From Selenomonadaceae bacterium (GTDB taxonomy: Bacteria > Bacillota > Negativicutes > Selenomonadales > Selenomonadaceae), in contig JAUNIB010000005.1 in assembly GCA_030523645.1 (NCBI GenBank), positions 1-64,000 on the forward strand: a DNA stretch of 64,000 nt, written 5' to 3'. A program made the translations under genes and the position numbers. Position 1 is the stretch's first letter; each line of letters starts with the position of its first letter. Of this stretch, positions 13,414-62,686 are shown piece after piece. Below the pieces are notes generated by a model. The model saw nothing but the letters and a program-made list of their open reading frames with translations, had not been told where the DNA came from and ran no database searches.

Positions 13414-13424
13414 TATTGTCTCCC

Positions 13425-17003: not shown

Positions 17004-17046
17004 CTGTATCACCATCTTTTAGTTTGTAATTTGCATAATCTTTTTA

Positions 17047-22231: not shown

Positions 22232-22394
22232 TTGAAAATCCTTCCTCCTGTTACTTTCTACAATTAATACTACTCTTACGCCAAAGCGTTGTTTAACAAA
22301 TAAACCTCTGCCCGAAAAAGGCGCACCAAAAATAGACAAACAACGGCCCTTCTCGTGTCAGTAACTTCCATAATATTATAATATCCTGTTGGTG

Positions 22395-34317: not shown

Positions 34318-34353
34318 TTTATTTTCCTCCTATATAACATGGGCAATCTCAGA

Positions 34354-41751: not shown

Positions 41752-41831
41752 TGGGGAAAAATAAAGTAATTAGGGCGATTGCCTCGGCTTATAGCTGCCG
41801 CCTATGCGGCGGTCTACCTGTTGCTGTTTGA
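41752..41831 (+). CDS. Tiny reading frame running into the CRISPR trailer repeat
   Basis: ATG at 41752 after AAAGGAGTACACGGC, with 26 codons (MGKNKVIRAIASAY...) whose last third is the degenerate CRISPR repeat at 41790. Possibly a gene truncated when the array or its flanking DNA was placed here; translation is uncertain. Confidence 0.3.
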
Positions 41832-42902
41832 TACAGTGTGGACCTATCATTTCTAAGCCGCCTATGCGGCGGTCTACGACATGGGACGACTCCTGCGACG
41901 GGGCCTTTCATTTCTAAGCCGCCTATGCGGCGGTCTACTAACTAAGGGAATGGTGTTAGTTATCACTGAATTTCTAAGCCGCCTATGCGGCGGTCTACGA
42001 AGCGCTGGGCGGAACGGCTCGGATATGAGGATTTCTAAGCCGCCTATGCGGCGGTCTACAAGGTAGGCGGTATCAAACGCCTCACCAACATTTTCTAAGC
42101 CGCCTATGCGGCGGTCTACGGCCACTCTCTGTGTCGGGTCGCCGTTCCTCCATTTCTAAGCCGCCTATGCGGCGGTCTACGGCTCGGAGCTTATTTTTAC
42201 ACGAATGAAAATTTTCTAAGCCGCCTATGCGGCGGTCTACATTGTATTGAGCGGTGACCGCGTAGGGTGAGATTTCTAAGCCGCCTATGCGGCGGTCTAC
42301 AAACAGCGTTGGCAGGAGCGTCAACAGCAACATTTCTAAGCCGCCTATGCGGCGGTCTACGAATGAGTACTGGGACAAGTACGATGCGTATGATTTCTAA
42401 GCCGCCTATGCGGCGGTCTACTAATCTGACAAGCTGGCCACCCCGCCGAGCTATTTCTAAGCCGCCTATGCGGCGGTCTACGCTCGCTGTCCTTGCCTCC
42501 GGCCACCATCACATTTCTAAGCCGCCTATGCGGCGGTCTACATCTCACGGGTCAGCGTGTCAGTCACCTGAATTTTCTAAGCCGCCTATGCGGCGGTCTA
42601 CCGCCAGAATCTGCATAAGAGACGACCTCTGTATTTCTAAGCCGCCTATGCGGCGGTCTACGTTCGCAAGAGTGCTGACGGGCAATTTCTGCATTTCTAA
42701 GCCGCCTATGCGGCGGTCTACTGTATGTCTCGTATCATGCTCTCGGCGGTAATTTTCTAAGCCGCCTATGCGGCGGTCTACGTTATCGGACTGACGACCG
42801 GCAATCGCTGTTCTTTCTAAGCCGCCTATGCGGCGGTCTACGTCGTAAATGGTGAAGACGGTTGCCGGGGTGGTTTTCTAAGCCGCCTATGCGGCGGTCT
42901 AC
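41790..42902 (-). CRISPR. Type I-F CRISPR array, 19 repeats and 18 spacers
   Basis: 28-base repeats at 41790, 41850, 41911, 41971, 42032, 42092, 42153, 42213, 42273, 42333, 42394, 42454, 42514, 42574, 42634, 42694, 42754, 42814 and 42875, with spacers of 32-33 bases. In the transcribed (minus) sense the repeat starts GTAGACCGCCGC, has stem-loop GCCGC-AUAG-GCGGC and ends in the 8-base tag CTTAGAAA, the I-F layout cut by Csy4 after the stem. The copy at 41790 diverges at its minus-strand 3' end, marking the distal (trailer) end. The other copies are identical. Confidence 0.98.
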
Positions 42903-42967
42903 TGCATTATTATCCCTTGTCATCCCCCTCAAATCAAGTCTGTCGAGTCCGACAAAAGAATAATGCA
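42903..42967 (-). promoter_or_regulatory. CRISPR leader with putative array promoter
   Basis: 65 bases between the csy4 terminator and the first repeat. Minus-strand TTGATT (plus 42932-42937), 17-base spacer and GATAAT (plus 42909-42914) form a promoter whose -10 box ends 6 bases from the first repeat. Inverted repeat TGCATTATT (42903-42911) and AATAATGCA (42959-42967) flanks the leader. A second inverted repeat TGTCG-AGTC-CGACA is at 42941-42954. Confidence 0.6.
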
Positions 42968-43027
42968 AAAATCCCCCTGTGCTGCCGCCCCTTGAAAATA
43001 CTGGGGCGGAAAGCACAGGGATTTTTT
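42967..43027 (-). terminator. Terminator at the end of the cas operon
   Basis: Outer arms AATCCCCCTGTGCT and AGCACAGGGATT enclose a GCCGCCCC/GGGGCGG stem and are followed on the minus strand by a T-run. It lies about 75 bases beyond the csy4 stop codon, ahead of the CRISPR leader. Confidence 0.85.
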
Positions 43028-43100
43028 GGTTTTTCTAGAATTCCGGAACGGTAGCCGTATCGCTAAGGCCATAGGTACTGTAGTTTCCGTTCATCTGCTG

Positions 43101-43619
43101 CTATTCCTCCGTCTTCCGGATAAAGAGCAGCATTTTTTGTCCGGTGCTGCTGCTGTCCAGTCTTATATACGGCTCTTTGAGCGTAATGGTATTTGGCGGA
43201 AACAGCTTTTCTGCTTCATCTACCGATATATCATGTCTTCTAGCATATCTTCTGGCTTTTGCCGAGCCGTTTGCCTCCTGATGAAGTCTGCTATAGCAGC
43301 TATATCCTCTGACTTCTTCGGGAACTGTACGAGGTCTGCGTACTACATGAACATAGTCTTCCAGTCTGCTAAGTTTTTTGTGCAGTTCCAAGCCATCCAG
43401 CATTTCTCCGTCGGGAGAAAAGACACGCAACTTGTTGCCGAGGCCTATATTGCCATCTTCCATCGTATAGCCTGGAAATGACACGCCAAACGGTATACGG
43501 CCTGCTTCGTCTGCCGCATTTGCAAAGGCAAGGTGCAGCTGGTGAAAGACCTTCGACCAGATGAAGTTCAGGGATATTTCCTGATCGGGTAAGAGAGTGA
43601 TTTCCTGATAGTATTTCAT
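43101..43619 (-). CDS. cas6f: CRISPR endoribonuclease Cas6f (Csy4)
   Basis: 172 residues. Aligns by eye with Csy4: opening YYQEITLLPDQE, catalytic His in VFHQLHLAF (residue 29), FGVSFPGY, an Arg-rich helix (KARRYARRHDISVDEAEKLFP) that would bind the repeat major groove, and STGQKMLLFIRK near the C-terminus, matching the catalytic Ser region. It is slightly shorter than the 187-residue Pseudomonas enzyme because the C-terminal tail is missing. It cuts pre-crRNA at the base of the repeat hairpin and stays bound. Three bases after csy3. Confidence 0.95.
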   Translation of the reverse strand: MKYYQEITLLPDQEISLNFIWSKVFHQLHLAFANAADEAGRIPFGVSFPGYTMEDGNIGLGNKLRVFSPDGEMLDGLELHKKLSRLEDYVHVVRRPRTVPEEVRGYSCYSRLHQEANGSAKARRYARRHDISVDEAEKLFPPNTITLKEPYIRLDSSSTGQKMLLFIRKTEE

Positions 43620-43622
43620 GGC

Positions 43623-44654
43623 TTAACCCTTTTCTCCAAAAACACCGCCTCGAACCAGTACCGCCATGACATAGTTTTCCTGGTCTTCTTTTCCCAGTCC
43701 TCCGTCAAGCACATATTCATTGAAAAGTGTATAAAAATCTTCTTTCCCTGAGGATTGACGGTAGGCGACCCCTTGATTTGTCACAGCACCATACGGGTCA
43801 ATTGCAATAGGCTGACTTTCACCATTATTATACCAAGTATCTATCGTCCTAATAGCGTTGCCGATTTTCTGGGAATGCATAGCTGCTACCCCATCAACTT
43901 GGTAAAGGACTTTACTCTTAGAACCAATCTTTTTGTTTTCAAGAGCCGTCTTGTCCATTATGAGCTCTTCACTGGGATAGACTTCCTGCCCTCTGCCAAC
44001 GAGAGCATAGGTCTTAACTTCAAAAAGCAGATATTCCCTCTTGCCGCAAAGGGCATCGGCAATCAGGGCTGCAATTTCCGCTATTGCAGTTTCATATTCA
44101 CCGCAGTCATCAAATTCCCGCAATTTCAATGAGAGTGCATTATCAATGACCCATGGCTTATCACCGGCTGTGATTACGACCTTCAGTTTTTCCACGCCGA
44201 CACGATTGCGCCAAAGGCCACGGCCATTGGCAAGATTAATAGCATAGCGGCGGGAAAGTTCTTTAAAGCCGTTTTTGGCGATGAAATTTTCTGCCACGGT
44301 CTTATATGCCTCTGCAAAGGCAGGACTGTTGCAAGCGGAAGGGGTTTCAACTCCACCAAGAACTTTCACGGTGAAGGACAGTACCAATGTATCCTGCTCC
44401 ATGCCAAGGCTGCAAGCATCTACGGTTTGTAAATTTGCCTCACTCACGTCTCCACTAACTTTTTTGCTCGACTTTGTACCTCGGACAGATTTCTCTCTAA
44501 TCTGCAATGGTGCCATATCTTCTTGCCACTCAGTCCCCTCTGCACCCCACTTTGCTCCGTAAAGAAGTCCGTGAGATACAACCAGCTTTTTCTCAAATGC
44601 TAATACAGAAGGGTATGCTATTTTATTCTGTTCCTTGCTTTTCCCATTTGACAT
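43623..44654 (-). CDS. csy3: CRISPR-associated backbone protein Cas7f (Csy3)
   Basis: 343 residues, the usual length. N-terminus IAYPSVLAFEKKLVVSHGLLYG, a YAINLANGRGLWRNRVGVE segment, and a late IRTIDTWY plus AIDPYGAVTNQG stretch are characteristic of Csy3. Six copies line the crRNA spacer in the I-F surveillance complex. A strong AGGAGG site precedes the start, and a 16-base gap from csy2 is the largest within the cas operon, fitting high expression of this multicopy subunit. Confidence 0.95.
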   Translation of the reverse strand: MSNGKSKEQNKIAYPSVLAFEKKLVVSHGLLYGAKWGAEGTEWQEDMAPLQIREKSVRGTKSSKKVSGDVSEANLQTVDACSLGMEQDTLVLSFTVKVLGGVETPSACNSPAFAEAYKTVAENFIAKNGFKELSRRYAINLANGRGLWRNRVGVEKLKVVITAGDKPWVIDNALSLKLREFDDCGEYETAIAEIAALIADALCGKREYLLFEVKTYALVGRGQEVYPSEELIMDKTALENKKIGSKSKVLYQVDGVAAMHSQKIGNAIRTIDTWYNNGESQPIAIDPYGAVTNQGVAYRQSSGKEDFYTLFNEYVLDGGLGKEDQENYVMAVLVRGGVFGEKG

Positions 44655-44670
44655 AATATTTTCCTCCTAT

Positions 44671-45576
44671 TCATTCGGCGATTTTATTCTGATTTGTGCA
44701 AAGATAAAGACCGTCATCTACATATGATGCATCGTATTGCCACATAATACTGTCTATGCTATCAAAGCGATACGGCATCTTGAATTCACCCAGAGTTACC
44801 ACGCTCTCAGCAAAGCAATGAGGCGTTTCCGGGTCTCTCTGATTGGCGACCTTCCCCAGCGGGGATATTGCTTTGTAGCCTACTGCCAAGGGAACAATCC
44901 AGCCGGGAGCCTTCTTTGTATATTCCCATTCCGGCTTTTCTCCGTCCGGGTTTACGTCCACGGCGTTTATCTTCAGGTAGTCGAGCAGCCGGTCCAGTGC
45001 GTCACCCTCACTGTCCTCTTTCATCATCAGGTCTCGGCGTTCTATGGGGACATAGCCGGGCATCAGCCGGCGCAGTAGCTTCTTTTCTGCGGCTTCGCTT
45101 TCTTCATCAACGTATTCAACAGACAGCTTCCCAATTCCCATAATATCACCGGAGGCCATTTTTTGCCGGAAGAGAAGACTCTCGGTTACCCTCAAGAATT
45201 CATCTTCATTGTCGCCGTTGATTCCCCGTATTTCTATCAGCAAGGAAATATTCATGTCGCATCTGGGTTCTTCAATAAATGATGGCTGCGTCCATATCCC
45301 CTTTGAATTCTTACGAATCGGCTTAGCTACGCCTACTATCATTCCATACCTGTCCCCACGGCCTTTGTACGTATGAAGAGAAAAGTGATGACAAGAAACT
45401 GCTAAACTTGTAAGTCGCACATCAACCCCCGCTACTCGCAGTCGCCGTTCAAGTGCATGAATGCCCCCTAGCCAGGCGGTCATCGCAGGAAATCCAACTG
45501 TGTACGGACTGCTCATGGCGTTGGCGTTATGTATTTCCATTTTTTGTATGAGCAGATATGTTTTCGTGATATTCAC
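44671..45576 (-). CDS. csy2: CRISPR-associated protein Cas5f (Csy2)
   Basis: 301 residues. Opens with TYLLIQKMEIHNANAMSSPYTVGFPAMTAWLGGIHALERRL, characteristic of Csy2. It continues with a SCHHFSLHTYKGRGDRYGMIVGVA region and a C-terminal VPLAVGYKAISPLGKV. It forms a heterodimer with Csy1 holding the 5' handle of the crRNA. Its start overlaps the csy1 stop by four bases. Confidence 0.94.
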   Translation of the reverse strand: MNITKTYLLIQKMEIHNANAMSSPYTVGFPAMTAWLGGIHALERRLRVAGVDVRLTSLAVSCHHFSLHTYKGRGDRYGMIVGVAKPIRKNSKGIWTQPSFIEEPRCDMNISLLIEIRGINGDNEDEFLRVTESLLFRQKMASGDIMGIGKLSVEYVDEESEAAEKKLLRRLMPGYVPIERRDLMMKEDSEGDALDRLLDYLKINAVDVNPDGEKPEWEYTKKAPGWIVPLAVGYKAISPLGKVANQRDPETPHCFAESVVTLGEFKMPYRFDSIDSIMWQYDASYVDDGLYLCTNQNKIAE

Positions 45577-46790
45577 CCCCTGTCATATTTAAGCACTTCT
45601 TTGACTTCGGCCTTTATGGTCAGCATTTCTTCCTGGCCCATTTTTACATGGTCATCCTTATGCAGCTTCTCATAGGTGCGGAAGAACCAGCGGGCAAAGT
45701 CTGTCGATACTTCCTCTATCCATGAGTCGTCCTGATTTCTTTGCTCCTCATACTTTTTATCAAGCCAAATCTTTTGACTGCGGGGAAGATGGTTATGCTC
45801 TCTGTCTGACCAGTCCTTTTCGCATTCTCTGAGGGCATATACAAATTGCATTACCTTGTCAATAATGTCAGCGGTTAATTCTCTCCTGAGCTTCCTTATC
45901 TTTGCATTATTTCGTTCCTTAGTAAATATTGCGTGGAGACGGTCAAACTCGTTCCGAAATTGCCACCGTCTTAGGGTGTTGTAAAAGAAGTCACTTCGAG
46001 GAATTATTATATCTCTGGGAGCTATGATAGGCGGACTTGAACTGAGTAAATAGGCAAATCCCCCGCCAGGATTTATTCTTAATGTGACATTATTTAATTC
46101 TTCCGCATAGATATCTTCATAGCCACCTTTTGTATTTAGGCTGCTTATATTTTGCGGCTGAGTTCCTCCGAATTTTATAGCAGTTAAATCTTTTATGAGA
46201 CTGTACTGTTTCCTGTATAGCTCATTTTTTGAGTCTTTGGCCTTCTCTGAAACTGATTCTTGTTGCTGTATAACCGCTTTCATTTTATATAAGACAGAAG
46301 ATGAGGTGAGCAGCGACAATAGATGATATCCTTCTCCTACCGGAAAATATACCTGTCGTATATTTCCTGTCGTCTCCCCCGGGGCTGCTCCGGCGATAGC
46401 CCTTACGATTTTCCCTTTTATTTCCTCAAAATTCTCAACATATTGTTTTAATTCATTTAAATAGTCAGATCCCGTTGTAAAATGCTCGGAAACTTTCCTT
46501 CCATCTTCCAGGATCAGATTCAAAAATTTTGCCGCTGGCAAGTCCTTTGCATCTGAAATCGCTATATCCGATTTATGTTTTGTAGTTGCTGTGCATACAT
46601 AGCCCCGATTTTGCGGGCGTTCTTCGCTTTTATCAAGTATTGATATGCTCCCATTTGTGCTAGAGTGTGTATATTTTCCTACATGCGTTGCTTCTCGGCA
46701 ATTCGATACATGAGCTAAAATATCATTTACCCATTTTTGTGTATTATTTGACCCTGCTTGTTCCTTTATGTAGTCCCCAAGTGTACTCAT
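45573..46790 (-). CDS. csy1: CRISPR-associated protein Cas8f (Csy1)
   Basis: 405 residues. Csy1 is divergent, so the call rests on position between cas2/3 and csy2, length, and features such as ARWFFRTYEKLHKDD near the C-terminus and GGTQPQNISSLNTKGG mid-protein, which is close to the family's GGTKPQNIS region. It is the large subunit that recognises the PAM (CC in type I-F) and contacts the crRNA 5' handle. It overlaps both neighbours by four bases. Confidence 0.93.
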   Translation of the reverse strand: MSTLGDYIKEQAGSNNTQKWVNDILAHVSNCREATHVGKYTHSSTNGSISILDKSEERPQNRGYVCTATTKHKSDIAISDAKDLPAAKFLNLILEDGRKVSEHFTTGSDYLNELKQYVENFEEIKGKIVRAIAGAAPGETTGNIRQVYFPVGEGYHLLSLLTSSSVLYKMKAVIQQQESVSEKAKDSKNELYRKQYSLIKDLTAIKFGGTQPQNISSLNTKGGYEDIYAEELNNVTLRINPGGGFAYLLSSSPPIIAPRDIIIPRSDFFYNTLRRWQFRNEFDRLHAIFTKERNNAKIRKLRRELTADIIDKVMQFVYALRECEKDWSDREHNHLPRSQKIWLDKKYEEQRNQDDSWIEEVSTDFARWFFRTYEKLHKDDHVKMGQEEMLTIKAEVKEVLKYDRG

Positions 46791-49700
46791 CTTTTCTCCC
46801 CTCTCTTTTTATATAGTCCCAGCTGGTCTGAGTAATAATACTTCCCTGTATAATTCTCTGGTATAGAGATTTCGCCATATCTCAGAGAAATCTTCTTTAA
46901 AGCCTTATCTCTCCTTTCTTCATCAATGACGCTACTACCTCTATTTTTCTCCAGAGCATCTATATAACTTCTGTCAAGCCACCAGGCACAGGCTTCGCTG
47001 TCATCTTCCTCTACGGTTATTCCGAGAATACCTGACCTGTCAGAATCTATCCATTCCCCATGCACATCCTGTTCGGAGAATATAAAGTCTCCGTCTTTAT
47101 ACATCCGGCAGAGTTTGATTTCCTGTCTGCCGTCGCGGAATTTGTTGATACTCTGAGGGAATGCGGTCAGCCACCAGTATTCCTGCAGCCAGCCCCGCAT
47201 TGCCTGCGGCCCGGGTACTGTAGTATCCTGAAAACGCTCCATAGTGAGGTGTTCTATCCCTATGAGGCTGTCCTTATCCATGTCCGGTTGTTTTTCTATT
47301 CGCGGTACTGCGTCTATCCGGCGTTCCAATTCGTTCACATCGGCAATTTCCTTGAAGTCGTGACTTCTCAGCGGGCAGGACGGTGTTTCAAAGCCTGGCT
47401 TAGTATAGGCCCGTTTATCGCCACGCATGCCCCTGACATTGTATTGGAGGATTGCCACATTCGGCTGCTCGATGGATTTCTCGCTGGGTCGATGACGCTG
47501 TACTCGGCCTGCCAGCTGAATAATGGAGCGATAGGAGGATGGCTCTACCACCGCCCAGTCAAAGTCATGGTCTCGTCCAACTTCTTCTACCGGGGTAGCC
47601 ACTACCACGAACAGCACATTCTCCCCTGCCGCATTGTCAATATGATGTCGGAGCACGGGGTCTGTAATTGCTACTGTCTCCTTTTCCCCTTTTCTTTTCA
47701 GTACCGAATCAAGATACTTCTCCTGCTCATGGCGCATGAGCAGCACCTGTCGGCTGTGGTATACCATTACCTTGACCGTATACCCATCCGGCCATTCATT
47801 ACCGGCCAGATATTTTCCGAGCGCTGCACATGGGTCAATATTTGCCATTCTGACAAGTCCGAGGGAAATCTTCTTGCCGGTTACTCTATCTCTTACATGG
47901 TGGTCATTGTGAAGACTGATTATACTGTCAGCGATTGCCCGGTAATACCCGGTTTCTCCTGAGTCCTCCAGATTTTTAATCTCACCACAGTCGATTACTG
48001 TTCCTTTTCTCCGGACTGCTTCTGTCCGGAGCTTTTTTATACGCTTTTTTACAAAAAGATTGTGACTGTTTTCAAAGGCTGTACCGGCTTCCTCCAAACT
48101 CCTTTCCGAAACAGTCTCCGCTTTCGCTGAGAATTCGTCACACCAGAGGACGGACAGCTTCGCAGATGCCGACATATATTGGGCAAAGCAGTTCCATCCT
48201 GAGCGGTATGCTTTGAATAGCCCCTTCGCCAAGTCCGGCGGAATAGTGGCCGAGGATATGGCGACACTGCGGCCAAGCATACCCGCCAAATGGACAAGCC
48301 GGGAAATGGCCATGAGGTCTCCTGGGGAGAAGTCATCTATCTCATCTATGACCAGATCAGATGACATGAGCCGCAGGAAAGGCAGTATATATCGTCCGCC
48401 GCGCTTCGTCTCTGTAGCGCCCATCAGATGGTCGATGGTACTTACAAGTACCGGCCGATACAGAAAAGCCCGATTCTTCTTCGATTTATTTCCCAGAGAT
48501 TTGCTGAAAAATATGTCAAGGAACTCATCAGTATAGCCTTCATAGTCTGCCAGCTCTGCTCCCAGCAGGTCTTCTTCGCTGCTATCCGTTTCTTCCATCG
48601 CCTTTTTATGCAGCTCACTCACCGCTGTGGAGCCGATGATTACCGCCATTTTTTCGGCATCAAGCCCTATTCTCTGTCTATATTCGTCACCGGTCTGCAG
48701 GGTCAACGACCTGAGTCCGAGAGCCAGAATGTAGCGCAGGGAATCACCGTCAGGAGATATGGCTCGCATTATTTTTGCATTGGCGTAGGTTTTGCCGCGG
48801 CCTGTACTGGCAAGGTTGACAATAAACCAGCCACTATGATTGCTGTCTGTCAGGTCATTCTCCTTGCGGTGCAGACGAATAGCACTGACTGCATCATCCT
48901 GCCAGGAGAAGTCCGCCGGACTGCGATGCCTAAGAGTTGATACATTATCAGCCTTTTCCATTTTCTCGGCAAGCCTCGGCAGGGCGTGGACTATTTTTAA
49001 TGCCTGCTCCGCTACCAGAAGCAGATGTTCATCAAGCTGCTGTTTCAGGGTTCCATGTTTATCCGTATTGGCAAAGAGTTTTCCTTTTCCCTCCGGAAAT
49101 TCCCTCTTTTCCTGTGAGGAAGCATAATAGTCTCCCAACATAAGGGCAAGGCGGCAGTAGCTCAGAAATGGTCTTATTTTTTCAAGGCTCTGTATTTCTT
49201 TGACGGCAGCCTGTTCTTTCAAGAGGCGTGCTGACCACTTCTTCAGCTGCTTCATCCATGGCTCAGAGTCCTGCAGCAGTCCATTTGAGAACTTTCGGCA
49301 TTTATCACCGGGCTCATCCGGTCTGCTGTAGCCCCAGTCTGCATCAATGCTGGCGAGCATTGATGCCATTGTCTCTTTTGTTGTTTTACCGCTGCTGTAG
49401 CTGTCCAGCTTCTCTTCGCTCAGGGGAAGTCTGTGATGGGACAGTATCAGCCAGCAAACCATTTGTGCTAAGGGCGGCATATTTTCAAGCTGTGGTCTTT
49501 CCATTTTTGACACAGCTTTTACGAGTCCGCTGTCAGTCCATGTTCCTTCCGCCAGCTTTGTCAGCCAGTCATTATCCGTATCACAGTCCTGTGCCTGACC
49601 GATAAGGGCAGCTATTAGGCAACAGGACATCCATTCATGTCGGAGCGGGTCTGCCAGCTTTTCTTTCTTTTTCAGTTTCTCCTGAAAGTGGTCATTGGCT

Positions 49701-50080
49701 TTTCCCCAATCATGAAGCAATCCTGCCACGGCTGTGACTGCTTTCATAAGAGGAAGGTATTCCCATGCATTTTCCCAGTCTCCGTGCCGCAGGTCTTTAC
49801 TGGTAGTATTTACCGGGACTATGCCATCCGAATTAAATTTGTCCTTATTCCCGACAATCCACAACAGCTCACTTCTGCTGCGAGAGCGTATCCAATGACA
49901 TGCCACGGCTGTGCTTTTGGTAGCGTTTTTGCGGAGCAGATTCTTTACCATAGCCAATCCAGCCTCAGTAATTATGGTTTTCCATGTATCATTCCCTATG
50001 CGGTCGGCAAATGAGTCCAATATACGACGGGTAGATGCCAAGGATTTTTTCTCACTGCGGCTGGTAAATATAACCATCAT
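46787..50080 (-). CDS. cas3f: Cas2-Cas3 fusion nuclease-helicase, type I-F
   Basis: 1097 residues. The Cas2-like adaptation domain covers about residues 1-95. The HD nuclease domain has VAGLLHDWGKANDHF (His123, Asp124). A superfamily 2 helicase follows: nucleotide loop in NLASTGRGKTYANA near 420, DEID box in LVIDEIDDFSPGD near 580, and motif VI QLAGRVQRHRP near 850. The Cas2-Cas3 fusion is diagnostic of type I-F. It degrades target DNA after recruitment and works with Cas1 in spacer integration. It overlaps cas1 and csy1 by four bases each. Confidence 0.97.
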   Translation of the reverse strand: MMVIFTSRSEKKSLASTRRILDSFADRIGNDTWKTIITEAGLAMVKNLLRKNATKSTAVACHWIRSRSRSELLWIVGNKDKFNSDGIVPVNTTSKDLRHGDWENAWEYLPLMKAVTAVAGLLHDWGKANDHFQEKLKKKEKLADPLRHEWMSCCLIAALIGQAQDCDTDNDWLTKLAEGTWTDSGLVKAVSKMERPQLENMPPLAQMVCWLILSHHRLPLSEEKLDSYSSGKTTKETMASMLASIDADWGYSRPDEPGDKCRKFSNGLLQDSEPWMKQLKKWSARLLKEQAAVKEIQSLEKIRPFLSYCRLALMLGDYYASSQEKREFPEGKGKLFANTDKHGTLKQQLDEHLLLVAEQALKIVHALPRLAEKMEKADNVSTLRHRSPADFSWQDDAVSAIRLHRKENDLTDSNHSGWFIVNLASTGRGKTYANAKIMRAISPDGDSLRYILALGLRSLTLQTGDEYRQRIGLDAEKMAVIIGSTAVSELHKKAMEETDSSEEDLLGAELADYEGYTDEFLDIFFSKSLGNKSKKNRAFLYRPVLVSTIDHLMGATETKRGGRYILPFLRLMSSDLVIDEIDDFSPGDLMAISRLVHLAGMLGRSVAISSATIPPDLAKGLFKAYRSGWNCFAQYMSASAKLSVLWCDEFSAKAETVSERSLEEAGTAFENSHNLFVKKRIKKLRTEAVRRKGTVIDCGEIKNLEDSGETGYYRAIADSIISLHNDHHVRDRVTGKKISLGLVRMANIDPCAALGKYLAGNEWPDGYTVKVMVYHSRQVLLMRHEQEKYLDSVLKRKGEKETVAITDPVLRHHIDNAAGENVLFVVVATPVEEVGRDHDFDWAVVEPSSYRSIIQLAGRVQRHRPSEKSIEQPNVAILQYNVRGMRGDKRAYTKPGFETPSCPLRSHDFKEIADVNELERRIDAVPRIEKQPDMDKDSLIGIEHLTMERFQDTTVPGPQAMRGWLQEYWWLTAFPQSINKFRDGRQEIKLCRMYKDGDFIFSEQDVHGEWIDSDRSGILGITVEEDDSEACAWWLDRSYIDALEKNRGSSVIDEERRDKALKKISLRYGEISIPENYTGKYYYSDQLGLYKKRGEKR

Positions 50081-51048
50081 AATGCATCACCATCGCTGTC
50101 CGGCCTATATAGCAGACTGTATCGCTCTATTTCCTTAAACATGAAATCAAGCGCTTTGTGCTGGACAAATTTTTCGAGGCAATTATTCCTGAATGCCTGT
50201 TGATTAAAGCCTTTGGACGCACATACAAACGCCCACGGCAGAATAAGAGCGTCTTTTACCAGATCTGCCACATCAAAGACCAATGCGCCCCGCCGTGTCT
50301 TGCCGTGCATTACTGCAAATCCGTGGGGAATACCCAGTACCCAAAGGGTCACTGCGCCAAGTCCATAGGCCAGGTAGTTGCCGTGATTCAGCAGTTCATT
50401 TGCTCCGTCTCCGTCCGCATCTCTTACAAATTCCCCGTATTCTGTTACCGTAGCTGCATATTTATATAACGCTTTTGTAAAATGCGCTTCTGCGGTGAGC
50501 AGTTCCGTAACATTTGACGCTTTCTGAATCTTTTTTCTGAATGTGTCCAGAGCTGCTTCCACTTCTGCATCATCAGAATATATTCCGGCGTCCTGAAGTT
50601 CTCTGTCTTTATCCCACACGCGCTGGAGGAAGTCACATCTTGATTGCTGCATTCCCTTTGCTACAGCAAGTCTTCTGCTCTCGTCAAACCACATGGACAG
50701 CCATCCCTGTACATATTTTGTCGGACGGTATTCACTCTGCGGAGTCATCCACTCTATCTCACAGCCTGCAAAAAGGGGTGTTGCACCAGTCCCGCAAAAG
50801 CCAACCAACACACCGGCTGACGCTAACATTCTCATGGCAGCCTGCGTAATGGAAGTACCTGTCCCCAGCATAATTACTGTGGTGTTCGCCAGAGGAATAT
50901 TCCAAAACATATTCTCCTTTGATGTTTCAGATAAGTATAGAACTCTGCCGTCCTTCTGCATTACACGGCATTTCTCCAGATAATATATATTAGCCCGATG
51001 AGAATGAAGGATTGCTTTTAATTCCGTAGGAGTAAAGCTCTTTCCCAT
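50077..51048 (-). CDS. cas1: CRISPR integrase Cas1, type I-F
   Basis: 323 residues. Metal-ligand and catalytic residues: Glu187 in TAEAHFTKALY, His248 in VMHGKTRRGAL and Asp259 in VFDVADLVKDA. The opening HRANIYYLEKCRVM and the C-terminal helix set match the Cas1f subtype. First gene of the cas operon. It integrates new spacers at the leader end with Cas2-3. Confidence 0.97.
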   Translation of the reverse strand: MGKSFTPTELKAILHSHRANIYYLEKCRVMQKDGRVLYLSETSKENMFWNIPLANTTVIMLGTGTSITQAAMRMLASAGVLVGFCGTGATPLFAGCEIEWMTPQSEYRPTKYVQGWLSMWFDESRRLAVAKGMQQSRCDFLQRVWDKDRELQDAGIYSDDAEVEAALDTFRKKIQKASNVTELLTAEAHFTKALYKYAATVTEYGEFVRDADGDGANELLNHGNYLAYGLGAVTLWVLGIPHGFAVMHGKTRRGALVFDVADLVKDALILPWAFVCASKGFNQQAFRNNCLEKFVQHKALDFMFKEIERYSLLYRPDSDGDAL

Positions 51049-55381: not shown

Positions 55382-55437
55382 ATTCGTCTATTAGTAGACG
55401 AATTTGATTTACCAATTTGTCTATTAATAGACGAATT
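55382..55437. promoter_or_regulatory. Two candidate centromere palindromes near rep
   Basis: ATTCGTCTATTAGTAGACGAAT at 55382-55403 (22 bases) and a longer copy at 55414-55437 with core GTCTATTAATAGAC. Perfect or almost perfect dyads, separated by 10 bases. A third copy lies at 60485-60510 beside parB. Confidence 0.65.
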
Positions 55438-55496: not shown

Positions 55497-56594
55497 TCAT
55501 TCTTTATACGGATTTTTCAGTCTGTCGTCCCGCTCTTTCATCCGGGCAGCGGCGTCTATCTCTGCCCAGTATTTCTTCTGCTTCTCGTATTCCTCTTTGT
55601 CCTCTATCATTTTCCGGACAAATCCACCGGGATTGCTGTAGCGGCCTTCCTTCAGCAGCGGGTCTGCCCGCATCAGAACATGCTCTATCCATCGCTCACC
55701 ATAAGTCTGGATGAGTTTATCTGCCACATAGTCCGGCGTGATACCGATCTGCCGGAGCCGATATGCAAGGAACGAGCGATTTTCGTCCGGTGTCGTCTCT
55801 GCCCTTTCAGCTTCGATTATCTCATCGGAGCGTTCCATGGTGATAGTGTAGCCAGCCGTCCGGCCGCCTTTCAGCAGAGTCTTTGCTGAGACTTTATACT
55901 TCGTCTTTTTATTGATTTCTTCGATTGGCTTATCGATGACATTTTTCTTAAAGGACGATACCTTCAGCTTGCCGTCTATCATATAGGCATCGTCTTTGAG
56001 ATTAAGGTAGCGGCGCAGCTCCTCAATGGTGAAATTGCGGACGATTTTTTTCGTGGGCATATTCTTGTGCTGCAGCAGCAGCTCCAGCAAACGGAGAGCA
56101 TGCGTGCTGCTCACCTGGAATGCTGCATTGAGCGGGAACTTGGTATACGGTATATCCTCCAGCTCCAACAGATACGGCTTTGTCTCGATATTGAAGCAGA
56201 TTGTCAGTCCTTCCGACGCACGGAATTCGATTTTTCGAAATACCGGTACGACACGGAAATCAGGTTTGTTTTTATCCGAGGAGACATTTATATCCTTGAT
56301 GGCTTTGGTACCCATATTCTCACAGGTCTTCCTCAGCTCGGTATAAAAACGCTTGTTGCCGCCGAAGAGGTCTATTATCTCTTTTGTATCAATGTGAATT
56401 TCCGGGAATTCATCATCAAAATATTTTGCATTAGGCAGATGCGGACGGAGACGCTGCAGACCCAAGAAGAAAAGTCTGCTCTCGTTCATGGAAAAGGTTT
56501 TTCTGGATTCGATAAGGGGATTCGCCTGGTATACCATTACATCCTTAAGATGTTCGTAGTTTGTCTGCTGCTCTTCTTCCTTCTTCTTTGCCAA
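55497..56594 (-). CDS. Plasmid replication initiator, Rep_3 (RepB) family
   Basis: 365 residues. The family opening is clear (VMVYQANPLIESRKTFSMNESRLFFLGLQRLRP), with two winged-helix domains: the first includes IDTKEIIDLFG, the second includes HALRLLELLLQHKN and FTIEELRRYLNLKD. A C-terminal extension from about 275 is charged (KQKKYWAEIDAAARMKERDDR). The start is TTG at 56594, with GAGGAGG 7 bases upstream; this keeps initiator levels low. It binds the iterons immediately upstream and loads the replisome with DnaA. Its presence beside core genes is unusual. Confidence 0.93.
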   Translation of the reverse strand: MAKKKEEEQQTNYEHLKDVMVYQANPLIESRKTFSMNESRLFFLGLQRLRPHLPNAKYFDDEFPEIHIDTKEIIDLFGGNKRFYTELRKTCENMGTKAIKDINVSSDKNKPDFRVVPVFRKIEFRASEGLTICFNIETKPYLLELEDIPYTKFPLNAAFQVSSTHALRLLELLLQHKNMPTKKIVRNFTIEELRRYLNLKDDAYMIDGKLKVSSFKKNVIDKPIEEINKKTKYKVSAKTLLKGGRTAGYTITMERSDEIIEAERAETTPDENRSFLAYRLRQIGITPDYVADKLIQTYGERWIEHVLMRADPLLKEGRYSNPGGFVRKMIEDKEEYEKQKKYWAEIDAAARMKERDDRLKNPYKE

Positions 56595-58379
56595 GAGTAT
56601 ACCTCCTCACCTTGCTTCATCATCAGCATATCAGTTTCCCGGGATAGTTATTTGATACCGTCCCCAGTCCACTTGTTCTGCGGGCCGTTCAGAGTTCCTT
56701 CCGGGATAGTTTTTCGAGTCTTCGGTATAATTTTACTATTACTTCTCAGTCGTCTGCGGCGACAGCTTCCATTAAGGGGCACCCAATTATGTTTCTGCTG
56801 CCCGCCCTGACCGTGAACAGTAATTCACCGGGATAGTTATTTGATACCTTTGAAAAGGCCCTTGTATCCCGCCCTGTCCAGCCACGCTTCCGGGATAGTC
56901 TCTCGATACTCTGTCGGTATCTAATTTCTATCCCGACGCACGAGATAAGTAATCATCTATCGAAGCTGCTTCAGAATACATTCCGCATCAATGATAACGC
57001 AGCACTCTATTGCCGTCTTCCGTCAGGATAGCTTTTCGATACCAGCAAAAGCCGTTTCCTTTGACCAGCTTCCATCTTCAAGCAACCGATTCTTTGTCGG
57101 GATAGTCTTTCGACACTTATTGATTCATCCACGACAGCCGCGGCTTTTCGGGGCAGCTGCGGGATAGCTGTTCGACACTTTTTCCTGCCTCGTCTGCTCC
57201 ATCGCGTTAGCTGACTTTCGTCCGGTTTCTGTCCAGGATAGTTCTTCGATACCTGACAAAATCATCACGACAGTTCATCTTCTGCACTATGCCTCCGGGA
57301 TAGCTTTAAGATACTTTTCTTTCCATCCGGATATTGCAGGATAGCTTTTTGATACTTTATTGCCGTCAATCGCAGTAATCGAATTTCTCTCCTTTGGTAT
57401 ACTACCACATTCCTTTCGTATCGGCAAGCATTCCTTCAGTATCGATTCTCTATCCTGCAGTATTTATTTCCTATCCCGCTTAGTATCGGATTTCTATCCC
57501 ACCAGTTATAATCCATCAGAGCGACACCCTAAATAGGCTTCCCATAATGTATCCCTGCGCTGTCCTTTAGTATCCGATGCCTCTCCTTGAGTATCTTATA
57601 CCTTTTCCTCCGTATCGAAGTCCTATCCTCCATTATCTTTTTTCTCTCCCGAAATTCGATACGGAACAGCAATAAGGCTGCAAATAAGGACAGATAAGAG
57701 ACAAGGAAACCGAACAATCTCCGGCAAAGGGTATTCAAAGTATCGAAATACTATCCAGATAGCCGGCTTTTCACACCGTTCTATAGGTTATTCACAATTT
57801 TCCCGGCTATTTTCCCATAAATCATAGGGCTTATGAGAGTTATTCACAATCAACTCCCTGTTATCCACAGAGTTATCCACAGACAAAGTATCAAAGAACT
57901 ATCCCACAAGTATCTATCTGCTACGCTGACAGTATCAAACAACTATCCCTGCAGTATCTTTTTTCTCTCCCAAAGTATCTAATTGCTCTCTCAAAGTATC
58001 ACATGACTATCCTGAGATTTCCGTCAGGCCTTGATATCTAAGGCTTCCCATAATGCCAAAGCAATAATAAAGCATATAAAAAGCAATATATAAAAAATCA
58101 AAAAACAAGGATTGATATTCTTTTTGTATAGAAAAAAACTGAATGAGTACGGAATCAACGGAGAATGCCGCAGTAATAGCGTACTGTATATTAAAAGATG
58201 GGCAGTAATCCGATCATTCAGTATCGAAAAGCTATCCTGACAGCTGACAGGCGTATAGAAATATGACAAGAGCAGGATAGAAAAAAGATACTCGAAAAAT
58301 ATCGCATATTGACCGTAAAAGATACGGATGATAATATAAAATTTATAAAGTATTTAACTGCTGTGCCGAGGAAAAAATT
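56595..58379. other. Plasmid-type replication origin with ~25 iterons and DnaA boxes
   Basis: 1.79 kb without a supportable gene. 19-base iterons with consensus GGGATAGYTWTTYGATACY occur in forward sense at 56641, 56703, 56830, 56892, 57025, 57099, 57161, 57235, 57297, 57338 and 58274. In inverse sense they occur at 56916, 57438, 57459, 57482, 57569, 57611, 57632, 57739, 57887, 57931, 57953, 57974, 57995 and 58220. DnaA boxes: TTATTCACA at 57788 and 57840, TTATCCACA at 57861 and 57873. AT-rich DNA at 58070-58150 and 58300-58370 could be the unwinding element. Reading frames here overlap iterons and have no family. Confidence 0.9.
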
Positions 58380-60464
58380 ATGGGACAAGCAATAATTGAC
58401 AGTATGGGAATCACATCATTTCAGCAGGATATTCCTCAGATACTGAAGGTGGCAAAAATCGGTCTGTGGAAGCTCCTGCTGGGTGACGGTATACCCAAAT
58501 TATATATCGATGATCGGATAGCTAAGCTGCTGTCTGTACCGGCCAATTTGTCTCCGGAAGATATATATGAAAAGTTCAAGAAGGGTATCGCCCCGCAGGA
58601 TTGGGCGAAGTTCTTACTTTATAAGAAGGACTTGCTGGATGGAAAACCGGCGGAACTGGAATATAGACATGGCACACCTTCAGGCGAGGTAATGGCTGTC
58701 AGATGCGGCGGCGTGATAGATACGGACTATAAAGGCCCGGGAAATCTTATATGCGGATACCTCCAGGATGTAACACCGGTCAAGCGGGTTTTGCATGAGA
58801 CGCAGCAGCAGCTCGAAGAGGAACATAGAAAACTTCAGGACGCTCAGCTCGTATCCAGTGTATTAACCCATGAATTTGCCAATGTCTATCTGGTCAATAC
58901 CTACAATAAGACGATAGAGGTCAGGAAACAGGATGGCTTCGAAGTCGAAAATGTGGAGAACGGTGACTATCTGAGGCTGGGCTATGATGATGCCTGGGCA
59001 TACTATATAGAATCATGCGTTCATCCGGATGACAGGGAAGCCTTGTTCCGAGCCGGGCAGCTGGAAAATATCATCAAGGAGCTTGAAACAAAAGACGAGT
59101 ACACCTACAACTACAGATCAATTCAGCACGGCCTTCGTCATTTTCAGAGCGTCTACCATAGGTTGGACGAGGATAGAATAATTGTAGGCTTTAGAAATGT
59201 TGATGCTATCGTTATGCAGGAGCAGCGGCAGCGTCAGATAATCGAAGATGCTCTGCTGCAGGCGGAAAGTGCCAACAAGGCAAAGACTGCCTTCCTGAAC
59301 AGCATGAGTCATGACATCCGGACGCCGCTGAATGCTATTATGGGCTTTACGCGGATGGCGGCCGTAAATCTTGATGACAGGGAAAAGATAACCCGATGCC
59401 TCGATAAGATTGAGATTTCGTCAGAGCATCTGCTGGCTCTTATAAATGATGTTCTTGAAATGAGCCGAATCGAGTCGGGAAAGGTTCAAATCGAACTCGG
59501 TACAGTCAGCCTGCGAAAAATAATAAACGGACTACAATGTATGTTTGAAGAGCAGGCAGGGAAAAAGAAGCAGATACTGATATTCGATACTGATAATCTT
59601 GAGGACAGCAGCGTTCTGGCGGACGAATTAAGGCTGAATCAGGTGCTGTTTAACTGTGTAAGCAATGCGATAAAGTATACTCCGGAAGGAGGCACGATAA
59701 CAGTAAAGGTTTCACAGTCAGCCGGGAGCAGGGCAGGATACGGATTGTATACCTTTACCGTCCGCGATACGGGAATAGGGATGAGTCCCGAATTCATGAA
59801 GTCTATATTCAAGGCTTTTTCCAGAGAGCAGGCATCTACTGTCAACAGCGTGCAGGGAACCGGACTAGGGATGGCTATCGCGAAGAACCTTGTTAATTTG
59901 ATGGACGGAACGATTACCGTTTCCAGCGAAAAGAACAAGGGAAGCGAATTTGTCGTATCTCTGGAGCTGGAGATAAATGACTATAAGAAAAACGAGCTGG
60001 ATGTCTCACCGGAATCTATTACAAAGATGATTGAATGTGATATGAACCCGGATGTAAAGTCACCGTTAGAGGGTCTGTCCATTTTACTGGTTGAGGACAA
60101 CGAACTTAACCGGGAGATTGCAGAGGTATTGCTGTCGAGTCTTGGGGCAAAAGTCGAACTGGCAGAGGACGGAGACGTAGCTGTCGAAAGGATAAAGCAG
60201 GAGCCGACCTGCGTATACGATGTGATACTTATGGACATCCAGATGCCCAAACTGAATGGGTACGAAGCAACTGCAGCCATAAGGAAACTCACGGATCCTC
60301 AAAAGGCGGGTGTGCCAATCATTGCGATGTCGGCGAATGCTTTCCTGGAGGATAAAAAGGCGGCTTTGGCGGCAGGGATGAATGACCATGTAGCAAAGCC
60401 GATAGATGTGAAGGCGCTTGTTGCGGCAATACAGAACATCAGAAAAGGAAGGAATAATAGCTGA
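58380..60464 (+). CDS. Hybrid sensor histidine kinase with PAS-like N-terminus
   Basis: 694 residues, no membrane helix. Two PAS-like regions (about 20-135 and 155-270, the second after a coiled coil at 138-155) precede HisKA with phospho-His in NSMSHDIRTPLNAIM near residue 315. HATPase_c motifs follow (LFNCVSNAIKYT, DTGIGMS, GTGLGMAIAKNL) and then a receiver domain (SILLVEDNELNREIAEVLL, phospho-Asp in VILMDIQMPKLNG, Lys in DHVAKPID). No HPt domain, response regulator or output gene adjoins. It lies between the origin and parAB, reading away from the origin. A GAGG site is 8 bases before the ATG. Confidence 0.88.
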   Translation: MGQAIIDSMGITSFQQDIPQILKVAKIGLWKLLLGDGIPKLYIDDRIAKLLSVPANLSPEDIYEKFKKGIAPQDWAKFLLYKKDLLDGKPAELEYRHGTPSGEVMAVRCGGVIDTDYKGPGNLICGYLQDVTPVKRVLHETQQQLEEEHRKLQDAQLVSSVLTHEFANVYLVNTYNKTIEVRKQDGFEVENVENGDYLRLGYDDAWAYYIESCVHPDDREALFRAGQLENIIKELETKDEYTYNYRSIQHGLRHFQSVYHRLDEDRIIVGFRNVDAIVMQEQRQRQIIEDALLQAESANKAKTAFLNSMSHDIRTPLNAIMGFTRMAAVNLDDREKITRCLDKIEISSEHLLALINDVLEMSRIESGKVQIELGTVSLRKIINGLQCMFEEQAGKKKQILIFDTDNLEDSSVLADELRLNQVLFNCVSNAIKYTPEGGTITVKVSQSAGSRAGYGLYTFTVRDTGIGMSPEFMKSIFKAFSREQASTVNSVQGTGLGMAIAKNLVNLMDGTITVSSEKNKGSEFVVSLELEINDYKKNELDVSPESITKMIECDMNPDVKSPLEGLSILLVEDNELNREIAEVLLSSLGAKVELAEDGDVAVERIKQEPTCVYDVILMDIQMPKLNGYEATAAIRKLTDPQKAGVPIIAMSANAFLEDKKAALAAGMNDHVAKPIDVKALVAAIQNIRKGRNNS

Positions 60465-60484: not shown

Positions 60485-60510
60485 AGATTCGTCTATTAAT
60501 AGACGAATCT
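60485..60510. promoter_or_regulatory. 26-base perfect palindrome, candidate parS site
   Basis: Centred on GTCTATTAATAGAC with arms AGATTC and GAATCT; perfectly self-complementary over 26 bases. Copies lie at 55382-55403 and 55414-55437, so the set brackets the replication and partition genes. Confidence 0.65.
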
Positions 60511-60603: not shown

Positions 60604-60651
60604 AAAAAGGGACTGCTAAAAATGAGTACTCATTTTTAGCAGTCCCTTTTT
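60604..60651. terminator. 48-base perfect palindrome, parB terminator
   Basis: A 24-base-pair perfect stem with no loop base, with A- and T-runs at its ends. It abuts the parB stop codon and can stop transcription from both sides. The core GGGACTGCTAAAAATGAGT resembles the hairpin at 8878-8927. Confidence 0.92.
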
Positions 60652-61637
60652 CAGTCTTCGTCCGGGGAAAGGATAAATGTTTTTTCTTCTCCGGACTGAA
60701 GCTTTATCTTTACTTGCAGTTTAATAGGAGATTGGGAGATAACCTTGGTAATCTTCATGGGGAAAGAACAGCCGACATTAAGACCGTCGGTAAGGAAGAC
60801 CTTCTTCGATATGTATTTTTCCTTTATCTCAGGCGGCTTCATCGATACCCAGTCATCTTTGAGAAGCTCACGCTGTACGTCAGGGGAGAGAGAAGAGATG
60901 ACGCGGGCTTTGGTGGTAGCCAGCCGAAGACCGTATTCTTTCTGGAACTCAGGAATCAGCTTCTTGGCAATCTGAGTGTAGATACCGGCCTGGCTGCGGG
61001 AGATACCAAAGGTGTTGGCGACACGCTGGAGAACATCACCGTCACCGTAGTAGGAGTGAGATTTTTCCAGCTTGACCATTTCAAGTACCGACTTGAGCTG
61101 AAGCTGGGGAGCTTCCTTTGCGCGGCCGAGACCGTTGTTTAATATGCAGATACGGCGGGCATCTGCTTCAGCGATTGCTCCGTATGCATAAACCTTAGCC
61201 GGTATGGAGGAATAAAAAGCGGATTTTATCCCGTCACCTTCGGCAACGGCTTTCTCTAAGAGCCGTTTGTAAGCGCGGAAGCGTGTGTGGCCTCCGAGGA
61301 TTATATATCTGCCGTTTGGTCTTGCCCAGACAACGATAGGACACCACAGGCCGTCCTTCTCGATGCTGGCGACAAGCTCCTCGAACCGGTTGTCCTCAAG
61401 GGGAGGGAAGAAGTTCCACTCTTCGGGAGCGGGGTCAAGCATATCCAGCTTGATGACAGCATCGGTGCAGTTCTTATAAATCTTTCGGTAGTTTTCGTCA
61501 GCCTTTATAGCCTCCTGCCGGGCATTCTCCCGGGAAAGAATACCGCTGGCTCCGATTTCCGGAGCGGCCTTGGCATCAATGTTAAAGTCGATAGCGCCAA
61601 GACCGAGAAGGCTTTTGCCTTTAATTTTTTCAGCCAA
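60651..61637 (-). CDS. parB: Chromosome/plasmid partition protein ParB
   Basis: 328 residues with TTG start at 61637, 9 bases after GAGGTGG. The ParB/Spo0J nuclease-like domain (DNRFEELVASIEKDGLWCPIVVWA, then GGHTRFRAYKRLLEK near residue 120) holds the CTP/ParB box. It is followed by an HTH region (DVLQRVANTFGISRSQAGIYTQIAKKLI) and a C-terminal domain for dimerisation. It should bind parS, spread on DNA and stimulate ParA. The start overlaps the parA stop by 8 bases. Confidence 0.92.
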   Translation of the reverse strand: MAEKIKGKSLLGLGAIDFNIDAKAAPEIGASGILSRENARQEAIKADENYRKIYKNCTDAVIKLDMLDPAPEEWNFFPPLEDNRFEELVASIEKDGLWCPIVVWARPNGRYIILGGHTRFRAYKRLLEKAVAEGDGIKSAFYSSIPAKVYAYGAIAEADARRICILNNGLGRAKEAPQLQLKSVLEMVKLEKSHSYYGDGDVLQRVANTFGISRSQAGIYTQIAKKLIPEFQKEYGLRLATTKARVISSLSPDVQRELLKDDWVSMKPPEIKEKYISKKVFLTDGLNVGCSFPMKITKVISQSPIKLQVKIKLQSGEEKTFILSPDED

Positions 61638-62610
61638 GTCTTGTCACCACCTCTTTAGCAAGGTTCATGTACTCAAGGGAGATTTTATCTTTGGGACGGC
61701 GTACCGTGAGCAGCTCGGAGCGAAGCTCTGACTGGCGGGCAACCTGACCGCGGGATATCTGAGTCTTGAAAATCATTTCGGGAGGGAGCGTGTCGGTGAC
61801 ACCCTCATAGGCCAAATCGGTGGACTGGGTACCCCGCTCAACGATATTGAAGAAGACGCCGAGAAGGGTCAGCTCCGGAGAAGCAATCTGGATTTTTTTC
61901 ACAAAGCGGATCATGCGGATAATCGCCTTGATGGAGCTTTTGTCGAGAGTAGTAGGAACGAGTACGCAGTCTGCGGCAAGAAAAACAGAGCTGGTATCTT
62001 CATTAAGGTCAGGATGGGTATCGACAATGATGTAGTCATACTTATCCAAATCCTTAACAGCCTGAATAATGCGCTTCAATATATTGATGCCGTAGTCGTT
62101 CTTGTAGCTGCGGATTTCCTTGCAGGCATTGATTAGTCCGTCATCACCGGCGATAATGTCAAGATTGTCAACAGAAGTGCTGAGGATGAAGTCCTCGATG
62201 GAGCCGGGCTCATCCTTGGTATATTCAAAAACTGCGTCGGTAAGGGTGATGTGATGGGGGAGACTGGAGCCGGTCATCCGGGCCTGATAGTTGTACTCCG
62301 GGTCATACTGGAGCAGCTCGGAGAGACTGCCCTGATGGTCGAAGTCGATGAGAAGAACCTTGTTGCCGAGCTTTGTCAGGCTATGGCCGAGGCAGCCTGC
62401 GGCAGTAGTTTTGCCGATGCCTCCCTTGTCACTGGCAATTACAATGGCTTTGGCAGTAGGTTTTCTGAGCTTGGCAACCATTTTTATACCCTCCTCAATA
62501 ATAGAAGTCTGGGTTCTACCTGATGCGGTGGCGAGTTCATCCAGCCTTTCCTTGGCCTCCTTAGAGACCCGGCTGGGGATGCGTCCGATGTCTTCCGATT
62601 TTTTTGCCAT
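61630..62610 (-). CDS. parA: Partition ATPase ParA with ribbon-helix-helix N-terminus
   Basis: About 326 residues from the ATG at 62610, preceded by GGGAGGA; the upstream start at 62667 falls within the operator. Residues about 10-40 (RIPSRVSKEAKERLDELATASGRTQTSIIEEGI) form a ribbon-helix-helix DNA-binding domain. The deviant Walker A motif is SDKGGIGKTTAAGCLG (about 61), Walker A' LIDFDHQGSLSELL and the Walker B VDTHPD. It is an ATP-dependent partition motor; the RHH fusion suggests autoregulation at the operator upstream. Confidence 0.93.
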   Translation of the reverse strand: MAKKSEDIGRIPSRVSKEAKERLDELATASGRTQTSIIEEGIKMVAKLRKPTAKAIVIASDKGGIGKTTAAGCLGHSLTKLGNKVLLIDFDHQGSLSELLQYDPEYNYQARMTGSSLPHHITLTDAVFEYTKDEPGSIEDFILSTSVDNLDIIAGDDGLINACKEIRSYKNDYGINILKRIIQAVKDLDKYDYIIVDTHPDLNEDTSSVFLAADCVLVPTTLDKSSIKAIIRMIRFVKKIQIASPELTLLGVFFNIVERGTQSTDLAYEGVTDTLPPEMIFKTQISRGQVARQSELRSELLTVRRPKDKISLEYMNLAKEVVTRLG

Positions 62611-62625
62611 ATATTGTCCTCCCTG

Positions 62626-62657
62626 TGACGCAAAATTTGACGTCAATTCTTGCGTCA
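62626..62657. promoter_or_regulatory. Putative ParA autoregulatory operator
   Basis: Three dyads in register: TGACGCAA and TTGCGTCA at the ends and TGACGTCA in the middle of a 32-base block, palindromic except for the AT-rich spacers. It lies right after the -10 box of the promoter and before the ribosome-binding site, as expected for an RHH repressor. Confidence 0.75.
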
Positions 62658-62686
62658 AATATATCATTGCACGAACATAATGTCAA
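62658..62686 (-). promoter_or_regulatory. Strong sigma-70-type promoter of parAB
   Basis: Minus-strand TTGACA (plus 62681-62686), exactly 17 bases, then TATATT (plus 62658-62663). It is a near-consensus promoter just upstream of the operator. Confidence 0.8.

Follow-up and report, generated by a model that had tools for sequence, protein, structure and literature searches.

A plasmid-type Rep_3 origin at the fork divergence point of a core-gene contig is probably the main chromosomal origin of Schwartzia

A captured replication origin of plasmid descent, with a Rep_3 initiator, is probably the main chromosomal origin of the genus Schwartzia, with oriC silent or subsidiary. With slightly less assurance, we favor a natural and stable takeover in this genus, in which the Rep_3 origin, having an enlarged field of iterons and a partition system of its own, replaced oriC long ago and dnaA was kept as a helper or regulator. 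The takeover is favored because in two species the skew changes at the iterons, both arms carry core genes, a sharp switch at dnaA is lacking, and the count of contig ends agrees with it. Physical linkage between the origin contig (C13) and the contig carrying dnaA (C11) is something we infer here, as no assembly joins the two.

Setting and assembly integrity

The window analyzed spans 64 kb at the start of contig C13 (152,318 bp), which belongs to a 2.31-Mb genome in 15 contigs with a completeness estimate of 100%. The host is a rumen or gut negativicute of the Selenomonas family, genus Schwartzia. Two genomes represented the genus: the one carrying C13 and its nearest relative, the Schwartzia sp. 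MAG RGIG250 (G009, hereafter the congener), whose Rep protein is 94% identical.

A sequence-only reading of the window had offered three explanations for a plasmid-type origin within core-gene DNA: a chromid, an integrated plasmid with a retained origin, or a chimeric assembly. What stood was an origin that is active, with the main chromosome as its favored location and a chromid with core genes as the other candidate; the chimera fell to the gene order of the congener, and a silent integrated origin is opposed by the skew and the conservation of the iterons. A join between a plasmid contig and a chromosomal contig is conceivable in a draft of this kind. We nevertheless rejected a chimera at the Rep_3 locus because the congener, an independent MAG, carries the same gene order, with coaE, polA, typA, Rep_3, kinase, ParB, and ParA collinear with C13 on one 47.7-kb contig. 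Skew and gene orientation were also coherent across all 152 kb of C13. A chimera is thus extremely unlikely, the least credible of the explanations considered.

Components of the Rep_3 origin

The initiator gene (55497–56594, minus strand) is an intact open reading frame encoding 365 aa with two winged-helix domains (WH1 and WH2). Its identification as Rep_3 was confirmed by Pfam matches to Rep3_N (3.9e-22) and Rep3_C (5.6e-9), both over the cut-off. Among solved structures, the protein is closest by sequence to RepE of F and pi of R6K. On comparison of the two Schwartzia species (dN 0.039, dS saturated), rep is under strong purifying selection. The closest plasmid relatives were found in Selenomonas ruminantium TAM6421, with 36% identity for Rep and 32% for ParA. 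The Rep protein had zero matches in a phage collection, and a phage source was dropped on that ground.

Iterons were located by an iterated position weight matrix (PWM) scan with a 19-bp unit (GGGATAGnnnnnnGATACT). The scan yielded 28 iterons at 56,641–58,292 (1.65 kb), plus two weak sites beyond, and most sites scored 20–28 bits. At the same loose threshold, C13 (152 kb) had just 25 hits outside this field, and the dnaA contig (176 kb) had 20. The earlier estimate of about 25 iterons in both orientations over 1.65 kb therefore holds, the number being far above chance, and so does the remark that such a number is unusual, as known plasmid origins carry 2–7 iterons (review, PMC4980987).

The iterons fall into two arrays. 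Array A (56641–57356, plus strand) consists of 10 sites of the form GGGATAGnnnnnnGATACY and one reversed site, about 62 or 74 bp apart; it sits between rep and array B, with its first site 47 bp upstream of rep. Array B (57375–58013, minus strand) has 15 sites in the opposite orientation, mostly 21–22 bp apart. Two outlying iterons, at 58220 (minus) and 58274 (plus), extend the field to 58292. Both arrays are conserved in the congener, as are both outlying sites. Identity between the two species is 74.5% over the iteron columns and 38% over the spacers (56,595–58,020), and in a control with shifted patterns only one of 1860 shifts was as good. The takeover is supported by this difference between iterons and spacers together with the purifying selection on rep.

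Four DnaA boxes lie inside array B on the plus strand (57788–57881), as the sequence-only reading had reported: two at 57788 and 57840 (TTATTCACA) and two at 57861 and 57873 (TTATCCACA). They form the densest DnaA-box window of C13, and the positions of both exact boxes are largely conserved in the congener. An AT-rich stretch at 58060–58180 is a candidate unwinding element, proposed from the sequence only. Iteron-type origins have direct repeats of 17–22 bp beside rep, often whole helical turns apart. Here, both Rep_3 domains occur with a 19-bp unit, a spacing of 21–22 bp in array B, and DnaA boxes nearby.

Partition genes and palindromes

A ParA/ParB pair, absent from the earlier note, was found beside the origin. 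The plasmid-type ParB-like partition protein is encoded at 60651–61637 (minus strand; Pfam ParB_N, phrog ParB-like) and the plasmid-type ParA partition ATPase at 61630–62667 (minus strand; Pfam AAA_31). In a tblastn search of plasmids, the nearest relatives of ParA were on Selenomonas ruminantium megaplasmids. A hybrid histidine kinase (58380–60464, plus strand; Pfam HisKA, HATPase_c, and Response_reg) separates the origin from the par genes, and in both species it lies between the iterons and parB.

A genome-wide search revealed two 20-bp palindromes (TTCGTCTATTARTAGACGAA) at 55383–55435 as candidate centromere (parS-like) sites, with a third copy downstream of parB at 60488–60507. Allowing up to three mismatches, the palindrome TTCGTCTATTAATAGACGAA has five sites in the genome, four of them on C13 (55383, 55416, 60488, and 70120) and the fifth on C8 (C8:148096; L066, 18096). 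All three palindromes of the congener are on its Rep_3 contig. None were found in four other genera, and a reversed control had no sites in Schwartzia. The palindrome appears to be genus-specific and clustered around the Rep_3 origin, possibly as a new partition site, and the linked ParB may use the copies in a parS-like role.

Core genes on C13

The claim that normally chromosomal genes share the sequence of the origin was upheld by NCBIfam matches and could be extended. Within the window, all on the minus strand, are coaE and mutM (12805–14255), polA (14535–17015; DNA polymerase I, 7e-290), which is on the leading strand of the left replication arm, typA (20399–22339; 2e-287), and serA and serC (32725–35388). 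Beyond the window, to the right of the origin, C13 carries miaB, mutS, mutL, polC, and dnaE, so that core genes flank the origin on both arms. GC bins of C13 are mostly 0.4–0.55, like those of the other contigs.

In closed relatives, the genes of C13 are scattered widely on the chromosome, several of them in the half across from dnaA. The terminus skew switch of S. ruminantium (G128) coincides with polA and polC. In g20 and g21 genomes with a distant Rep_3, C13-type core genes and Rep_3 are on different contigs. In one relative (G072), of another Selenomonadaceae genus, a distant Rep_3 is exactly centered, at about 81 kb of its own contig C9 (L096), in a 173-kb V-shaped skew; this replicon is probably a large plasmid or chromid.

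These comparisons bear on the reading in which a second chromosome, separate and carrying core genes, is replicated from the Rep_3 origin, and the main chromosome uses oriC near dnaA. A plasmid-type Rep_3 and ParAB, core genes, and a GC content near that of the chromosome are what a chromid would have, and the palindrome is nearly confined to C13. Relatives, moreover, seem to have Rep_3 replicons without these core genes, as on the V-skew contig of G072, and the second chromosome of Prevotella intermedia is noted to carry a Rep_3 gene, although neither iterons nor a clear skew accompany it (PMC4755523). Against a chromid, at least five blocks from distant chromosomal sites would need to have been relocated, including polA, polC, dnaE, and mutSL. 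A takeover of the main chromosome is supported because the gene blocks of C13 lie far apart in relatives and because relatives with a distant Rep_3 keep them off the Rep_3 contig.

As a side observation, the polA–coaE–polC operon is kept in S. ruminantium (G128) and in G020; in Schwartzia, polC is separated from polA (L006, 349–4131, versus 14535–17015 for polA).

Strand asymmetry at the Rep_3 origin

Plotted along C13, the GC skew has the shape of a clean V and goes from minus to plus. The change point, located by cumulative sums (CUSUM) and taken as the point of fork divergence, fell at 56277–58106: at 58,106 when all bases or intergenic bases alone were used, and at 56,277 for fourfold sites corrected for gene strand. 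In the congener, the change points were at 27,606–27,659 and 25,879, beside its Rep. A classifier of leading- and lagging-strand genes was trained on the other contigs and assigned 37 of 39 samples correctly; along C13, it fell steadily to a minimum at the rep gene and then rose.

Selection has conserved the origin, and replication forks have diverged from it, because the skew switch, the classifier minimum, and the conservation of iterons and rep coincide there. Since skew is a long-term average of fork direction and not a measure of present activity, we say only that the Rep_3 origin looks active. The sequence-only reading had proposed a skew check around 57.5 kb, with a flat skew, together with a depth equal to that of dnaA-bearing DNA, pointing to a silent integrated origin; the check found a sign change inside the iteron field. 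An integrated plasmid whose origin no longer fires would account for plasmid-type genes within core DNA. It is opposed by skew that diverges at the iterons in two species and by the selection on iterons and rep, and is therefore very unlikely.

The dnaA locus

The single copy of dnaA is on C11 (176 kb). The genes dnaA, dnaN, and recF are intact, and gyrB, recF, dnaN, and dnaA are in the usual order; mnmG–rsmG is inverted relative to G007. A sharp skew switch occurs at dnaA in the relatives G007, G128, and G072, and is absent at dnaA of C11. There, both skew and classifier are neutral for 58 kb around dnaA and then rise; on the dnaA contig of the congener, the skew is near neutral too.

Weaker DnaA-box clusters are present near dnaA. 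The strongest cluster of C11 is at C11:69.32–69.40 kb (L010, 9320–9400), between trkA and rsmG and 28 kb from dnaA; it is possibly a displaced oriC. The sole two parS-like sites near dnaA, C11:28709 and C11:34457 (L008, 8709 and 14457), are altered at the same base (TGTTTCATGTGAAACA), and this holds for both species. Relatives have perfect parS sites and Spo0J near dnaA; in Schwartzia, Spo0J is on C6. The changed parS base and the moved Spo0J may reflect an altered ParB specificity.

With dnaA, dnaN, and recF intact, and with DnaA boxes and the two altered parS-like sites still present, oriC may still work. It is possibly displaced or weakened, and since DnaA and its boxes remain, it may act as a minor second origin. 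A takeover accounts only in part for the neutral zone of C11.

Two further readings turn on this locus. In the first, one chromosome has two comparably active origins, as in V. cholerae NSCV1, and the neutral zone of C11 is where forks from the Rep_3 origin and from oriC converge. The zone does extend over 58 kb and then turn positive close to the 69.3-kb DnaA-box cluster, the contig-end count (see below) balances as well, and there is a precedent (PMC6284228). Neither dnaA nor the displaced cluster shows a strong minimum, however, and the switch at Rep_3 is far cleaner; moreover, if oriC fires rarely, the reading merges into a takeover. We judge two comparably active origins to be improbable. 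The second is the chromid already mentioned, with which the persistence of dnaA, DnaA boxes, and altered parS-like sites on C11 would agree; nonetheless, the strong left arm that relatives show is missing from the locus.

Origin and terminus count

Skew was sampled by stretches covering about half of the genome. In the sampled stretches, it was positive throughout on C2, C5, C6, C10, C12, and C15 and negative throughout on C1, C3, C4, C7, C8, and C14. The only terminus-type switch in the sampled half, from positive to negative, was near 525–560 kb of C9. The tally of contig ends at which forks enter or leave balanced exactly with one origin, on C13, and one terminus, on C9. If a separate replicon started at dnaA, another terminus would have to be concealed where two contigs join, so the end count speaks against a second replicon as an argument of parsimony, not as proof. 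With the required terminus placed exactly at a junction, a chromid is unlikely, although it is the most credible of the rival readings.

The right end of C13 runs into a promoter repeat that is also on C1 and that, by its sequence, looks like an rrn promoter. A main chromosome replicated from the Rep_3 origin is supported because of this shared rrn-like repeat and the clustering of the palindromes on C13. Linkage of contigs by shared ends gave rrn flanks and a 42-bp overlap between C2 and C9, but no unique path from C13 to C11; gene order in the relatives was too scrambled to link contigs. A search with a dif pattern gave no convincing dif even in closed relatives and was hence uninformative for the number of replicons.

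Proposed mode of initiation

In F, P1, and RK2, Rep binds iterons cooperatively, DnaA helps, AT-rich DNA melts, and helicase is loaded (PMC4980987). At the Schwartzia origin, Rep_3 monomers would bind the tandem iterons of array B, and Rep together with DnaA on the four boxes would melt the AT-rich DNA near 58.1 kb. Helicase would then be loaded, and forks would leave both ways. Array A, by the rep promoter, would limit initiation through Rep titration or handcuffing and through repression of rep; by analogy with the split ori2 of V. cholerae, it is likely a control array (PMC6090056). ParA and ParB would segregate the region via the GTCTATTAATAGAC palindromes, and the former oriC next to dnaA would either stay silent or serve as a second origin of minor importance.

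Relation to known systems

The origin resembles those of F (RepE), P1, and R6K (pi) in its two-winged-helix Rep_3 protein, 19-bp iterons, DnaA boxes, AT-rich DNA, and linked ParA/ParB. It differs in having about 28 iterons in two opposed arrays rather than 2–7 (PMC4980987), on a contig with polA, polC, and dnaE. The Rep and ParA matches in S. ruminantium TAM6421 are on different replicons, are distant in sequence, and have no core genes seen around them.

Vibrio cholerae Chr2, with ori2 and RctB, and other iteron chromids share a plasmid-type initiator, numerous initiator sites divided between core and control arrays, their own ParAB, and core genes. Unlike these, C13 has a Rep_3 rather than an RctB initiator and carries replicative polymerases, and a single terminus was found in the sampled half of the genome. 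Reviewed iteron chromids come from beta- and gammaproteobacteria (PMC6090056), whereas the host of C13 is a negativicute. The V. cholerae strains NSCV1 and NSCV2 combine plasmid-type and oriC-type origins in one genome, possibly on one chromosome (PMC6284228), but they are strain-level fusions; the Schwartzia arrangement is common to two diverged species, and its skew tracks the plasmid-type origin.

A plasmid origin can drive a chromosome, as in the fused V. cholerae strains (PMC6284228), in integrative suppression in E. coli (PMC4287441), and with an integrated plasmid in delta-dnaA Synechococcus elongatus (PMC7198777). The latter two arose by laboratory selection in mutants of dnaA or oriC, whereas in Schwartzia dnaA is intact and the arrangement is natural and old enough to have shaped the skew. 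Among open-licence papers, we found no natural, conserved, plasmid-derived main-chromosome origin with an intact dnaA, and no paper describing a chromid in Selenomonas or the Negativicutes.

So far, a plasmid origin in place of oriC has been a matter of laboratory suppressors and a few fused Vibrio strains. If it has occurred in Schwartzia, the main-chromosome origin would be exchangeable in nature with dnaA still present, genus-wide, and with the strand asymmetry reset. One could then test how once-per-cycle control is maintained by an iteron origin on megabase DNA, perhaps via the roughly 28 iterons in opposed arrays, and how partition shifts from parS and Spo0J to plasmid ParAB. Even on a chromid, polA, polC, and dnaE under plasmid-type control would be unusual in a negativicute.

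Other features of the contig

A complete type I-F CRISPR-Cas system (cas1f, cas2-3f, cas8f, cas5f, cas7f, and cas6f) with about 19 repeats was observed at 41790–51048, 5 kb from the origin. Beyond the window, a DUF3800-VIII RNA motif scored over the Rfam gathering score at C13:124.5 kb (L005, 475–537).
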